From Actinospica robiniae DSM 44927 (GTDB taxonomy: Bacteria; Actinomycetota; Actinomycetes; Streptomycetales; Catenulisporaceae), in assembly GCF_000504285.1 (NCBI RefSeq), contig NZ_KI632511.1, positions 3,159,372 to 3,223,371 of the forward strand: a stretch of 64,000 nucleotides of DNA, in the 5' to 3' direction. The notes beneath the pieces are model-generated. The model worked only from the letters and a program-made list of their open reading frames with translations. It was not told the origin of the DNA and did not search any database. Position numbers and translations under genes: made by a program. How positions within the stretch are numbered: position 1 is the first letter of the stretch; each line of letters starts with the position of its first letter. This document shows positions 16,731-22,018 of this stretch, in pieces.

Positions 16731-17399
16731 TCAGTCCTTGGTCCAGGGCCCGAAGCCGTTGGACTCGAAAGCCTTGTCGGAGGCCTTGATGGTCACCACG
16801 GCCTTGTTGCCGTAGTCCACGTTGTCGTTCGCGGCGATCGAGTCGGTGTCGCCGGTGGTGTTGGTCATCCGCTGCCAGTAGCCGCCGGTCGAGTCGGTCG
16901 CCTTGGCCGAGTAGGTACCGGGCTGGATGTCGATGCCGACGATCAGCGTGCCCGATCCGAACTTGCCCCTGGTCAGCGAGGGGCCGTTCGCCGGGACCCA
17001 TCCGCCCATGCCGCTGGACTTGAAAGCCTTGTCGGTGGGCAGGATCGTGACCACCGCCTGGTCGCCTTGGTCGACGTTGTCGTTGGCGAGGATGGAGTCG
17101 TCCGAGCCCGTCGTGTCCTTATCGCGCTCCCAGTAGCCGCCGAGTTCGTCCGTCGCCAGCGCCTTGTAGGTGCCGGGTTGGATGTCCTTGCCGACGATCA
17201 GCGTTCCGTTGCCGATGCCCTTGGGCGCGGCGGGCTTCGGCGCGGCGGACTTCGCGCCGGCTGTGGTTTTCGCGCCTGCAGCCGTCTTCGCCGAGCCGGA
17301 CGCGGAGCTCGACTTGTCGGCCTGGCAGCCGGTGGCCGTGACGGCGAGCGCGGCGGCCAGCGTGAACGCGCCGACGGTCTTCTTCAGGTTGCGAGACAT
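16731..17399 (-). CDS. Lipoprotein with two tandem copies of a ~65-residue domain
   Basis: A 222-residue protein. The signal ends AVTATGC, with lipobox Cys near residue 23, then an Ala/Lys-rich spacer. Two tandem copies follow, each starting GTLIVGxDIQPGTY and continuing GGYWxR, DSIxANDNVDxG, AVVTI and KAF(K/E)S. Neither copy carries an enzyme motif I know; the domain is common in actinomycete surface proteins. The ATG at 17399 begins MSRNLKKTVGAF; an upstream GTG in frame is less likely. The gene ends at the 21 bp hairpin and diverges from the HTH-methylase gene. Confidence 0.8.
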   Translation of the reverse strand: MSRNLKKTVGAFTLAAALAVTATGCQADKSSSASGSAKTAAGAKTTAGAKSAAPKPAAPKGIGNGTLIVGKDIQPGTYKALATDELGGYWERDKDTTGSDDSILANDNVDQGDQAVVTILPTDKAFKSSGMGGWVPANGPSLTRGKFGSGTLIVGIDIQPGTYSAKATDSTGGYWQRMTNTTGDTDSIAANDNVDYGNKAVVTIKASDKAFESNGFGPWTKD

Positions 17400-17546
17400 G
17401 ACGTGTACTCCCCTTTTCAGCGACTGTCCCGGGCGACTGCCCCGTGTTGACATATGAAGTGAAGCAGGAAGATGTGAACACTGTCAACAGCAAATCCGAC
17501 GGCGCTGAGTCCGACATTCGTGAACAGCGCGCGGTACGCTGGGCGC

Positions 17547-19397
17547 ATGACGGACCACACCGAGGTGACCGCCGCCCAGATCGCCCGCATCGCCGGCGTC
17601 GGCCGGGCGGCGGTGAGCAACTGGCGCAAGCGGCACGCGGACTTTCCGGCGCCGGTCGGGGGCAGCGAGACGAGCCCGACGTTCTCGCTGCGCGCCGTGG
17701 AAGACTGGCTGCGCGCCGAGGGGAAGCTCAGCGAGACCCCGGCCGACGAACTGCTGTGGCGTGCCGTCGACGCCGCGGGCGGCACTGCGGACGCCACCCG
17801 CGCCGTGCTCACCGGGCTCGGCCGCGCGCTGGCCGGCGCCCCCAGCTCACCCGCGGAGCAGACGCTCGACCCCGAACTCGTCGCTCAGGCCTCGAAGCTG
17901 GCCGAAGCCGACGGCCGGGGCGAGGTCTTCGAGCGCCTGCAGGACCGGTACGTCACCACGTATATGCGCAATCGGGACGCCGGGAACGTCGGCGAGCCGC
18001 TGGCCCGCCTCATGGCCGGCCTCTCCGCCCCGCCGCGCGCGTCCGCGTCCTCGCCGCCGGCTCACGTCTACGACCCCTGCTGCGGCATCGGATCCCTCCT
18101 CGCCGCCGCCGCACGGCAGGGCTCGACTTCACTCACCGGGCAGGCCGCCGAACCGAACCTCGTTCCCCTCGCGACCACCCGCCTCATGCTGCTCGCGGAC
18201 GGCCTCGACATCGACATCCAGCCCGGCGACGCGCTGCTCGCCGACACGCACGCCGGTCTCGCCGCCGACGCAGTGCTCTGCCAACCCCCCACCGCCCAGC
18301 GCGAGTGGGGCTTCGACGACCTCTCCTATGACCCGCGGTGGGAGTACGGCATGCCGCCGCGCGCGGAGCCGGAGCTCGCCTGGGTCCAGCACGCCCTCGC
18401 CCGCCTGCGCCCGGGCGGAATCGCCGTGGTCCTCCTCCCCCCTGGCGTCGCCGTGCGCCGCCCGGGCCGCCGGATCCGGGCCGAGCTGCTCCGCCGGGGC
18501 GCGCTGCGCGGCGTCATCGGTCTGCCCGCGGCCTGGGCCGCGCCGTACGGCGCTCCGCCGCATATCTGGATACTGCGACGTCCCGATCTCGCGAGCCCTG
18601 CGCCGAACCGGCTGCTGTTCATCGACCAGTCCGCGCCGGTCGACGTCGCAGCCCTCGGAGATACCGTGGAGCGTATCGTCGAAGCCTGGCACGCCTTCGA
18701 GCACTCGCCGGACACGGCCGCGGTCGAACCCGGGTTCAGTGCCGTCCTTCCGGTCATCGAGCTGCTCGACGACCTCGTCGATCTCAGCCCGGGCCGCCAC
18801 GTCCCGCACCCGGAGACCGGCCTGGGGCGAGTGGATCTGCTCGCGAGCCGGGCGACCGTGCAGAGCGTCCTCGCCCAGCTCGGCGCGTTACTGCCGGAGC
18901 TGGGACCGGATCCGTCGCCGAGCCTGCCCTGGCCGATGACGACGCTCGGCGACCTGGCTCGGACCCAGGCTCTTGAGATCCTGGCCGAGGCCGCCATCGC
19001 ACCGGGAGACGTCCTCGTGCCGGTCCTCGGCGGAGCTATGGGCCAGGCCGTCGTCGTCGGCGACGGAGATCCGCTCGTCGGGACCGCGACCGGGCGGGGA
19101 ACGGTGGCCCTGCGCACGGACAAGGGCGTGCTCGACCCCTGGTTCGTGGCCGGCTTCCTGCGCAGCGACGCCGCCGCGCGGCAAGCCGTGAGCCACGCGT
19201 CCTCGACGAGCCGGATGGACATCCGCAAGGCTCCGCTGCCGCGGCTGCCGCTTTCTCGCCAGCGCTCCTATGCCGCCGCGTTCCAGCGGATCGTGGAGTT
19301 CAGCGATTCGCTGCGCCTCGTCGCGGATCTCGGCGAGCGGTTCGCCCGGGAGATCACGAATGCCCTTGTCGAAGGCACCGCTCTGCCTGCTGAATGA
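17547..19397 (+). CDS. HTH + HsdM-like N6-methylase + HsdS-like fusion with altered catalytic motif
   Basis: A 616-residue protein. Residues about 6-60 are an HTH (TAAQIARIAGVGRAAVSNWR). Residues about 120-400 resemble the type I methylase subunit, with motif I as DPCCGIGSLLAA near 175. The catalytic NPPY box is replaced by QPPTAQREWG near 245, so DNA methylation may be lost. Residues about 465-616 resemble the half of a specificity subunit (TTLGDLARTQ to RMDIRKAPLPRLP). No HsdR is present. A membrane protein and a Ser/Thr kinase follow on the same strand. A role as a regulator or in phage defence is possible, but neither is shown. Confidence 0.8.
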   Translation: MTDHTEVTAAQIARIAGVGRAAVSNWRKRHADFPAPVGGSETSPTFSLRAVEDWLRAEGKLSETPADELLWRAVDAAGGTADATRAVLTGLGRALAGAPSSPAEQTLDPELVAQASKLAEADGRGEVFERLQDRYVTTYMRNRDAGNVGEPLARLMAGLSAPPRASASSPPAHVYDPCCGIGSLLAAAARQGSTSLTGQAAEPNLVPLATTRLMLLADGLDIDIQPGDALLADTHAGLAADAVLCQPPTAQREWGFDDLSYDPRWEYGMPPRAEPELAWVQHALARLRPGGIAVVLLPPGVAVRRPGRRIRAELLRRGALRGVIGLPAAWAAPYGAPPHIWILRRPDLASPAPNRLLFIDQSAPVDVAALGDTVERIVEAWHAFEHSPDTAAVEPGFSAVLPVIELLDDLVDLSPGRHVPHPETGLGRVDLLASRATVQSVLAQLGALLPELGPDPSPSLPWPMTTLGDLARTQALEILAEAAIAPGDVLVPVLGGAMGQAVVVGDGDPLVGTATGRGTVALRTDKGVLDPWFVAGFLRSDAAARQAVSHASSTSRMDIRKAPLPRLPLSRQRSYAAAFQRIVEFSDSLRLVADLGERFAREITNALVEGTALPAE

Positions 19398-19422
19398 CTC
19401 GTAAGACTCCTATGCTGTTCCG

Positions 19423-20013
19423 GTGAGAATCGTGATGCGTCGTGTGCTGTGGACGCTCGTGCCGATCGGGTCGCTCGGACTGCTCGGCTGGGTGCCCCCG
19501 CTGCGGATAGCGTTCAGAAGGAAGAACGCCACGGCCTGGCTGTGGTTCGCCGGGTCCGCCGCGGCGTTCGTGCTCGTCATCGTGCTGACGAGCACCGTGC
19601 GCGTATCAGATGTCGATAACACGCCGCCGACCTGGGTCGGCCTCGTCGAGATCCTCAACATCATCTTCACCGCTCTCTACACGGCCGTCGCCAGCAAGGC
19701 GCTGACCCCGAAGCCCAAGCCGGCGCCGGTGCCGCCGGCCGCGTGGGACGTGCCCGGCCGCGGTTACGGCTACGGCTACGGCTACGGCTACGCACCCGCA
19801 CCCGCACCCGCACCCGCCGCGGGGTACGGCTACGGCGGGTATCCGGCGCCGCCGCAGGCCTATCCGACCGCGCCGCCGGTCGCCGAGCCGTCGTCCGCCC
19901 GGCCGAACGACGTCGCCGCCGAGGTCCAGGCCGAGCTGCGGGAACTGCGCGACCTGCTCGGCGAGTCGGCCGCCCGGGCGCGCGAGGGCCGCGACGTGCG
20001 GGGTGAACAGTGA
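19423..20013 (+). CDS. Small membrane protein with Tyr-Gly/Ala-Pro tail, coupled to the kinase
   Basis: A 196-residue protein with two to three membrane segments in the first 95 residues (VLWTLVPIGSLGLLGWVPPL, WLWFAGSAAAFVLVIVLTST, ILNIIFTALYTAVASKAL). A cytoplasmic tail with YGYGYGYG and APAPAPAP repeats follows, ending in a charged helix EVQAELRELRDLLGESA. The GTGA overlap at 20010-20013 couples it to the kinase gene. A scaffold, anchor or kinase substrate role is plausible. GTG at 19423 is the start used; ATG at 19435 is an alternative. I do not recognise a named family. Confidence 0.75.
   Translation: MRIVMRRVLWTLVPIGSLGLLGWVPPLRIAFRRKNATAWLWFAGSAAAFVLVIVLTSTVRVSDVDNTPPTWVGLVEILNIIFTALYTAVASKALTPKPKPAPVPPAAWDVPGRGYGYGYGYGYAPAPAPAPAAGYGYGGYPAPPQAYPTAPPVAEPSSARPNDVAAEVQAELRELRDLLGESAARAREGRDVRGEQ
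19765..19815 (+). repeat. Hexanucleotide repeats (TACGGC)4 and (GCACCC)4 inside the membrane protein gene
   Basis: Four TACGGC units (19765-19788) are followed, after a partial unit, by four GCACCC units (19792-19815). They encode the YGYGYG and APAPAP stretches. Both are six-base units, so length change keeps the reading frame. Confidence 0.8.
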
Positions 20014-21605
20014 GGCAGGGCCGTGTGATCGCCGGCCGGTACCGGCTCGACGTCCCGCTCGGGCGGGGCGGGATGGGCGAGGTCTGGCGCGCGTACGACG
20101 AGCGCCTCGACCGGCACGTGGCGGTCAAGATCATCCTCGCTTCGGCCCCGGCCGGCCAGAACCCGGGCGCGGAACTGGCCGCGCGCTTCTCCCGCGAGTG
20201 CCGCGCGCTGGCCCGGATCGACCACCCCGGCGTGGTCGCCATCCACGACGCGGGCCGCGACCCCGACCGCGCCGGCGGCGAGCTCTACCTGGTCATGCAG
20301 CGCATCGACGGCATGAGCGTGGCGGACTTCATCGCCGAGAACGACCGGATACCGTGGTGGCAGGCGGCCGCGCTCGGCGCCCAGATCGCCACGATCCTGG
20401 CCGCCGTGCACGCGATCCCGGTGGTCCACCGGGACCTGAAGCCGAGCAACGTCATGCTGCGCCCGGACGGGACCGCGGTGCTGCTGGATCTGGGCATCGC
20501 AGCGGTCTTCGATCCGGACCTCAGCAGGCTGACACGGACCGGCGAGTCGCTCGGCAGCCCCGGATACATGGCGCCGGAACAGGCCACCTCCGGTCTCGCC
20601 GGGCCGCACAGCGACCTCTACGCCCTGGGCTGCGTCCTGCACGAAGTGCTGACCGGCCACCCCGTCTTCAGCGCGCCGACGCCGTACGCCCTGTTCGCCA
20701 AGCACGCCGGCGAAGCGCCCACCCCGGTCCGTGTGCTGCGCCCGGACGTGCCGGAGGCGTTGGAAGCTCTGATCCTGGAACTGCTGGCCAAGCAGCCCGA
20801 ATCGCGCCCGGCCTCGGCCCGTATCGTCTACCAGCGCCTGACCGCGCTGCTGCCCCCGCCCCGGCCGGATGCCGCGCAGGCGGAGCACCCGTTCGACCCG
20901 CTGCGTCCGTTCCACACCCCACTCGCCCCGCCGCCGGGGGCCGGCGGCCCCAGCACCCCGTTCGTCGCACCGGAAGCGTCCGAGCGGCCGGAGATCGACC
21001 TGTTCGCGGCGCTCGCCGAAGCCGAAGAGCTGATCGGCGCGGGCAAGTACGCCCCGGCCGTGCACATCCTCGGCGCCGCGCTCGACGCGGCCCGGCGCCA
21101 GCACGACCCGCACGGCCCGGTGGTGCGCTCGCTGCGCAAGCAGTATGCCAGGATCCTGATGCTCGACGGACAGGTCCGCCCGGCCCGCAGCGAGTTCCTG
21201 CACCTGGCCCAGGCCGCGGCCGCGAACCACGGCGCGGCCAGCGCGGAGGCGCTCGGCTACCGCTTCCTCGCCGCGCAGTGCCTCGAGCAGGCCGGCGAGA
21301 TCTCGGACGCGCTGGCCGAATACCAGGCGATCCTGCCGGCGTACGCGGCGCTGGTGAACCACGACCCGGGCAAGGCCCTGTCGGTGCGCGACCGCATCGG
21401 CAAACTGCTGATCGCCACCGGCCGCGCACGCGAGGCCTGGCCGGTCCTGCTCGGCCTGCTCCAGGACCAGGAACGCACCCTCGGCCCGCAGCATCCGGAG
21501 ACGCGCGCGCTGCGCTCGCGGCTGGACCAGCTCGGCTCCGCGACCACCGCGGTGGCTCGGACCGGTCGGACCCTGGGCGCCCGGACCGGTCGGAACGGGG
21601 AGTAA
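20010..21605 (+). CDS. Hanks-type Ser/Thr protein kinase with C-terminal TPR-like domain
   Basis: A 531-residue cytosolic kinase. Residues about 10-275 form the kinase domain: glycine loop GRGGMGEVW, VAVKII Lys, catalytic loop VVHRDLKPSNVM near 139, then LLDLGIAAVF (DLG instead of DFG, common in this group) and GSPGYMAPEQA. A Pro-rich linker follows. From about 330 a helical, TPR-like region with AEAEELIGAGKYAPAVHILG and ALAEYQAILPAYAALV. There is no transmembrane helix or PASTA domain; the coupled membrane protein may supply membrane location. The GTG start lies inside the stop of the preceding gene. Confidence 0.9.
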   Translation: MRQGRVIAGRYRLDVPLGRGGMGEVWRAYDERLDRHVAVKIILASAPAGQNPGAELAARFSRECRALARIDHPGVVAIHDAGRDPDRAGGELYLVMQRIDGMSVADFIAENDRIPWWQAAALGAQIATILAAVHAIPVVHRDLKPSNVMLRPDGTAVLLDLGIAAVFDPDLSRLTRTGESLGSPGYMAPEQATSGLAGPHSDLYALGCVLHEVLTGHPVFSAPTPYALFAKHAGEAPTPVRVLRPDVPEALEALILELLAKQPESRPASARIVYQRLTALLPPPRPDAAQAEHPFDPLRPFHTPLAPPPGAGGPSTPFVAPEASERPEIDLFAALAEAEELIGAGKYAPAVHILGAALDAARRQHDPHGPVVRSLRKQYARILMLDGQVRPARSEFLHLAQAAAANHGAASAEALGYRFLAAQCLEQAGEISDALAEYQAILPAYAALVNHDPGKALSVRDRIGKLLIATGRAREAWPVLLGLLQDQERTLGPQHPETRALRSRLDQLGSATTAVARTGRTLGARTGRNGE

Positions 21606-21610
21606 AGGAG

Positions 21611-22018
21611 CTAGGAGAGGCTGGAGCGCAGCGCCTGCACTCGGGCGAGCGCCGCGTCGAACGCCGTCGGCTCGAGCTGCCCGGTGGTGTACGCGCGCAG
21701 CCGGCTGACCACACCGGCTATCTGCGACGCGCTGGATATGTTCTCCCCGAAGAAGATCACCCCGGCGCACTGGCCGGCCTCGATGGCGGTGAGTAGCGCG
21801 GAGGGCACGGTCAGCCCCGGGTAGGAGTAGATGACGCGCTGGCCGGCCCACTGCAGGCTGCTCAAATTCGGCGTCGCCTTGCGAGGGCCGTACCCCTGCG
21901 CCCTCCGGAGGACGCTGACCAAGCCGATCCCGGAGACGCCCGCCAGCACGGTACGCCGGTGGGGAGGAAGGCGCGGCGCGCTCGGGCTCACGGACTCGAC
22001 TGAGGTCTGGCCGGTCAT
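21611..22018 (-). CDS. Collapsed glycoside hydrolase family 3 gene (N-terminal start and C-terminal end joined)
   Basis: A 135-residue ORF. Residues about 18-40 look like a Tat signal (PHRRTVLAGVSGIGLVSVL). LQWAGQRVIYSYPGL and CAGVIFFGENISSASQIAG match the first beta-alpha unit of exported GH3 enzymes. The text then jumps to TAFDAALARVQALRSSLS, which resembles the very end of such proteins. Everything between, including catalytic residues, is missing. An in-frame internal deletion of several hundred codons is the simplest reading. It may be inactive. It converges with the kinase gene five bases away. Confidence 0.65.
   Translation of the reverse strand: MTGQTSVESVSPSAPRLPPHRRTVLAGVSGIGLVSVLRRAQGYGPRKATPNLSSLQWAGQRVIYSYPGLTVPSALLTAIEAGQCAGVIFFGENISSASQIAGVVSRLRAYTTGQLEPTAFDAALARVQALRSSLS

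Follow-up and report, generated by a model that had tools for sequence, protein, structure and literature searches.

A candidate kinase-linked transcription regulator derived from a type I-like adenine methylase in Streptomyces and its relatives

In a window of 64,000 nucleotides from Actinospica robiniae DSM 44927 (contig NZ_KI632511.1, positions 3,159,372 to 3,223,371), we describe a triad of forward-strand genes encoding a pseudo-methylase (MT), a membrane protein (MEM) and a Ser/Thr kinase (KIN). MT probably, in our moderately confident assessment, descends from a type I-like adenine methylase and serves today as a transcription regulator, namely a local repressor or autoregulator under membrane-coupled kinase control. 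Loss of the catalytic residues, conservation of the gene order and a conserved local operator were all computed, and together they suggest that, in Streptomyces and its relatives, an enzyme of phage defence was converted to a gene switch. The proposed operator and the divergent lipoprotein gene next to it are additions to a preliminary description of this DNA, which had neither.

Architecture of the pseudo-methylase

MT is a 616-residue protein encoded at 17547..19397 (+) with an ATG start at 17547, a longer form from a GTG at 17520 being possible. The preliminary description had read it as a fusion of a helix-turn-helix (HTH) with HsdM-like and HsdS-like parts, and both the profiles and the predicted structure agree with that assignment. 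A Pfam profile search identified the N6_Mtase domain (PF02384, 1.5e-25), the N-terminus gives a weak mad1-like match for the HTH, and residues 475-590 match type I specificity proteins (1.3e-6). An AlphaFold2 model computed with 29 relatives (mean pLDDT 88, pTM 0.73) places the HTH at residues 9-57, and its residues 64-427 superpose on the M protein of PacII with a Z score of 33 over 346 residues at 3.4 Å, as well as on the type I methylases 3lkd and EcoR124I. The top Foldseek match of the model is 7eew, a fused M-half-S enzyme, which aligns with residues 68-607; the root mean square deviation of 26.9 Å over the 486 aligned residues reflects a different placement of the domains. Thus, the profile matches and the superpositions of the model indicate that MT joins an HTH, an HsdM fold and a half-HsdS, the latter bearing a target-recognition domain (TRD; 18927..19316, +), in a single protein. 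PADLOC scores MT as MTase_I (5e-98); its hsdM equivalog score is 22 against a cut-off of 243.

Loss of the catalytic motif

Active N6-adenine DNA methyltransferases carry (N/D/S)PP(Y/F/W) at motif IV, in place of which MT has the degenerate QPPT that the preliminary description had noticed, here located at residues 246-249 (18282..18293, +). Within the clade of MT proteins from triads, motif IV reads HPPF or HPPY in the 29 from Streptomycetaceae and QPPT or QPPS in the 6 from Catenulisporaceae, and none of the 35 is intact, so that the NPPY-carrying homologs that would have spoken against the preliminary description do not occur there. What is conserved in this clade is the degeneracy (35/35), QPPT/S itself being confined there to the six Catenulisporaceae. 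Among the homologs outside triads, 31 have an intact (N/D/S)PP(F/Y) and 21 are degenerate. In a tree of the family computed without the motif IV columns, the triad clade groups together (SH-aLRT 89) and at least 11 switches between intact and degenerate states are required. The change from Asn to His that gives HPPF arose in several separate clades of the family.

The S-adenosylmethionine (SAM) motif I, DPxxGxG, is retained in MT as DPCCGIG. The motif II acid, which contacts the SAM ribose and is seen as GQE/GQD elsewhere, is replaced by Ala; it is A or T in all five Catenulisporaceae with data and is lost only there, being kept in the Streptomyces triads. Because this acid is lost in the Catenulisporaceae, cofactor binding has probably gone along with catalysis in the MT of the window. 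Defence finders call proteins of the MT type type I methyltransferases, yet the members of the Streptomyces/Catenulispora clade are unlikely to be ordinary methylases.

Conservation of the triad

MEM (19423..20013, +) is a protein of 196 residues with three hydrophobic segments and a low-complexity, Tyr-Gly/Pro-rich tail, to which no family could be assigned; it also has a C-terminal helix (EVQAELRELRDLL) that is strikingly conserved among relatives (for example, RIDQVRAELDELSDYLRK). KIN (20010..21605, +) overlaps MEM by 4 nucleotides and has a kinase domain (PF00069, 3e-40) with its active-site motifs present, followed by a C-terminal helical-hairpin domain resembling tetratricopeptide repeats (TPR-like); it appears soluble, no membrane segment being seen. 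The preliminary description had placed two genes downstream of MT on the same strand, coupled to each other by GTGA, and the overlap of this type is indeed found in 27 of the 30 MEM-KIN pairs measured.

The three proteins were searched for in the whole genomes of 41 relatives, in many of which they co-occur, and the neighbourhoods of about 90 MT homologs were retrieved, with genes called by a codon-position model. About 35 loci of Streptomycetaceae and Catenulisporaceae contain the triad. Its position is fixed in most Streptomyces loci, between mfd and surA-mazG-P450-rpf-rpf-eno, and the Catenulisporaceae triads are located elsewhere. Since the trio is conserved, the arrangement is not due to chance; the synteny across relatives bears out the earlier proposal of a three-gene system, in which the kinase and the Tyr-Gly membrane protein stay adjacent. 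Genomes of the same class (family code f18) have as many as 11 HTH-methylase matches each, which makes this an unusually expanded family. The counterpart locus in S. coelicolor is presumably SCO3101-SCO3104. Our literature search, for which most subscription journals were out of reach, found no mention of that locus and no paper describing the triad or methylase-kinase regulators of DISARM.

A candidate operator upstream of MT

A gene for an exported lipoprotein of 222 residues with a lipobox and two repeats, which has no Pfam match, lies upstream of MT on the opposite strand (16731..17399, -) and is the proposed target gene. Divergent exported or lipoprotein genes are found directly upstream of MT in 33 of 34 triads (families c13, DUF4352, c12 and c71). 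Between such genes and MT, about 70-180 bp upstream of the latter, we observe a palindrome of the form TGTGAA-N4-GTCAACA. Comparison of the upstream regions revealed a shared CTGTGAACCGAGTCAACA in Streptomyces and CTGTGAACACTGTCAACAG in Catenulisporaceae, which contain the imperfect palindrome CTGTGAAC-N3-GTCAACAG. The proposed operator in the window is TGTGAACACTGTCAACA (17473..17489), itself an imperfect palindrome. A second half-site, GTGAACA (17520..17526, +), is also present in related Catenulisporaceae loci and falls within the spacer of a possible MT promoter, CCGACA-N18-TACGCT (17511..17540, +), which ends 6 nucleotides before the ATG and would give a leaderless transcript. This promoter is below the cut-off of a consensus scan, which found none above threshold. 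A further half-site, TGTTGACA, is seen at 17442-17449, closer to the start of the lipoprotein gene.

The association of the palindrome with MT extends beyond the window. Of 198 Streptomycetales genomes, 167 have an MT homolog and 31 do not; the exact pattern TGTGAANNNNGTCAACA is present in 107 of the former and in none of the latter (Fisher, 1e-12). At least 88 of the 135 exact matches sit immediately upstream of a listed MT match, in the same orientation. With a matrix built from triads only, the MT upstream region outscores the rest of its locus in 19 of the 52 non-triad loci, and in 33 of the 52 it ranks in the top 5%. In cross-validation, 61 of 86 MT upstream regions score above 15, as compared to one of about 720 valid control regions; that one lies upstream of the drmA of locus L191, which heads a DISARM-like operon with MT as an internal gene. 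Operator variants occur upstream of the majority of the distant MT homologs. In the 9.9-Mb genome of A. robiniae itself, the degenerate palindrome TGTKRACNNNGTYMACA occurs once (control 0), and because this regulon search gave a single site, MT appears to be a local regulator. Elsewhere, three TGTGAAC-N3-GTCAACA sites occur within 210 bp (G389:C18:22946-23154), with no MT match listed beside them.

The HTH of MT may be the domain that reads the operator. In each MT class it is better conserved than the other domains, and in the window protein it is the most conserved part (17553..17732, +), with 69-79% identity to Streptomyces triads. Its recognition helix varies with the site: GRAA pairs with TGTGAAC-like half-sites and TRAT mostly with TGAAA, the other half, GTCAA, being constant. 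The TRD is also better conserved in triads (51% identity) than in non-triads (36%) at equal identity of the catalytic domain.

Relatives in defence loci

Distant MT homologs are found in a DISARM-like arrangement, DrmA-DrmB-DrmC-MT-KIN-UvrD, in loci L043, L182, L184 and L190, and without a called DrmC in L191; profiles were run on L184, and the other four were assigned by matching gene clusters. Motif IV of the HTH-methylase homologs in these five loci is varied (DPPF, GPPS, APPF); a TPR-like kinase accompanies them in their operons, often along with a UvrD-like helicase. The palindrome CTGTGAAC-N3-GTACACAG is present upstream of drmA in L190 and L191. Other homologs occur in type I restriction-modification (R-M) loci, together with HsdM-HsdS-HsdR, a kinase and a MAD3-like ATPase (L058, L188 and L189, with parts of this set in L054, L055 and L060), where profiles were run on L058, and L188 and L189 were assigned by the same clusters. 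In these loci an extra degenerate HTH-methylase (S-PL, EPPF, HPPF) precedes HsdM (NPPF), HsdS and HsdR; an SMC/MAD3-like ATPase is encoded divergently, and a Ser/Thr kinase gene lies downstream. Motif IV is lost in the MT that neighbours HsdM in L054, L058 and L060. The TPR-like tail is common to the KIN of the window and the kinases of the five DISARM-like loci and of L054, L055, L058 and L060.

Given that distant homologs of both MT and the kinase belong to loci of the DISARM-like and type I R-M kinds, a defence ancestry of the triad is plausible. The MT-kinase pair may regulate defence operons there, the triad being its domesticated stand-alone form. It may be, though we put this forward tentatively, that the triad represents a new kind of signalling unit in bacteria, in which a membrane-coupled, TPR-like Ser/Thr kinase controls a single-operator pseudo-methylase factor, domesticated from an MT-kinase module that regulates DISARM-like or type I R-M operons in other actinobacteria. 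If the reading of MT as a regulator is right, the methylase and kinase pairs of such loci would be a candidate for the decision by which actinobacteria switch on these defences, and about half of the Streptomycetales would carry a kinase-linked transcription switch derived from a restriction-modification enzyme, usually at a fixed site.

Proposed mechanism and alternatives

DNA binding, repression and dimerisation by MT are inferred, as are the target of phosphorylation and its direction, along the following lines. MT would dimerise, probably through its half-HsdS tail, and its N-terminal HTH would bind the palindrome in the region that separates the MT gene from the divergent lipoprotein gene and reduce transcription of the MT operon, the lipoprotein gene, or both. 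MEM and KIN, translated together, would form a membrane-coupled signalling pair that provides the input, and KIN would phosphorylate MT or a bound partner, thereby changing its grip on the operator. The preliminary description had offered a non-methylating DNA-recognition regulator, read out by phosphorylation, as one of two alternatives. The regulator itself is well supported, and a specific candidate operator is now available, the sequence of which makes the proposal directly testable; phosphorylation may be its read-out.

Several observations weigh against a regulator of this kind. The divergent lipoproteins belong to several unrelated families, and the operator includes a TTGAC element resembling a -35 box, so that part of its conservation may be that of a promoter. 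The co-variation of half-site and recognition helix follows the tree and does not stand for a large number of separate events. Nor do partial correlations clearly distinguish the HTH from the TRD as the reader of the operator. Because HPPF retains the aromatic residue and most Streptomyces MT proteins retain SAM motifs I and II, some residual methylation could still occur in the HPPF-type Streptomyces proteins. In addition, three genomes of the Streptomyces family (L157-L159) lack MT and the lipoprotein gene but retain MEM-KIN at the usual Streptomyces site, and the MEM-KIN pair therefore has some role independent of MT.

The other alternative of the preliminary description was a reduced anti-phage defence unit, in which MT would recognise foreign DNA but leave it unmodified and the kinase would be the effector, as in single-kinase (PD-T4-6) or Pgl-like systems. 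The distant homologs of MT and of the kinase with its TPR-like tail in DISARM-like and type I R-M loci speak for it, as does the score of 294 bits between KIN and the PADLOC PD-T4-6 model PDLC04042, although PD-T4-6 models match Ser/Thr kinases broadly. The Streptomyces triad, however, occupies a single fixed housekeeping locus outside defence islands, no defence gene is present among the 10 genes flanking the triad in the window, and the TRD is conserved rather than diversified, all of which leave this explanation unsupported for the triad and, in our view, unlikely.

Somewhat less likely again is that some other transcription factor uses the palindrome, or that its main role is that of a strong promoter for the lipoprotein gene, with MT acting elsewhere. 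The minus strand of the operator does contain TTGACA, positioned as a possible -35 of the lipoprotein gene, with a -10-like hexamer 17 bp further in Streptomyces, but the site tracks MT across families, strands, differing divergent neighbours and the heads of DISARM-like operons, and is absent from genomes that lack MT. We give marginally less weight still to MT being a non-catalytic partner of a methylase encoded elsewhere (M1M2S-like or METTL14-like): its closest structures are PacII M1/M2, and in Nocardia and others an MT homolog directly precedes an intact HsdM (NPPF)-HsdS-HsdR set, but no triad locus examined has an HsdM neighbour. The least probable is an active, unusual methyltransferase acting as an epigenetic regulator with His or Gln at motif IV, for despite the HsdM fold (Z 33 to PacII M), the retained motif I and an aromatic residue in the HPPF of several clades, QPPT/QPPS retains neither the Asn nor the aromatic residue, and the Catenulisporaceae have lost the motif II acid too.

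A small open reading frame of 135 residues with no Pfam match follows the triad on the opposite strand (21611-22018, -) and is possibly the remnant of a longer gene for an exported enzyme.

Comparison with known systems

The triad falls outside Pgl/BREX, MADS, DISARM and type I R-M alike. Like Pgl/BREX, with its PglX methylase and PglW kinase, it brings together genes for a methylase-like protein and a Ser/Thr kinase, but KIN scores 61 bits against the PglW cut-off of 990, and the PglZ phosphatase and PglY/BrxC ATPase are missing among the 10 flanking genes, as the preliminary description had pointed out. The parts of the triad give weak profile matches to the HTH (MAD1), methylase (MAD2), specificity (MAD5) and kinase (MAD6) components of MADS; the scores for MAD2 (11.9 against 720) and MAD6 (157.5 against 460) are far below the NCBIfam cut-offs, MAD3, MAD4, MAD7 and MAD8 are absent near the triad, and MT fuses three parts in one protein; MADS is an eight-gene locus. 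DrmA, DrmB and DrmC, present around distant relatives such as L184, are absent around the triad of the window. The flanking genes also lack HsdR, in agreement with the earlier remark that there is no restriction subunit, and MT falls below the hsdM equivalog cut-off as given above. The fused M-half-S type I methyltransferase of Vibrio vulnificus (7eew) resembles MT in that its HsdM body leads on to a single TRD and a long helix, and MT differs in its added HTH, its lost catalytic motif and the absence of an R subunit.

A close parallel is that of EcoRII, SsoII and Ecl18kI, methyltransferases that carry an HTH at the N-terminus and act as repressors of their own promoters (PMC3874152), a precedent that supports reading MT as an autoregulator. 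MT shares with them the N-terminal HTH on a methylase fold and, as a candidate, an operator at its own promoter; they are active enzymes paired with a nuclease, whereas MT has an HsdM and half-HsdS fold with its catalytic motif lost, and in the triad a membrane protein and a kinase take the place of the nuclease. A further precedent is WhiA of Streptomyces, a member of a homing endonuclease family turned transcription regulator (PMC3781837); its fold and genes are unrelated to those of MT, and the likeness is that of a DNA-processing enzyme family turned regulator.

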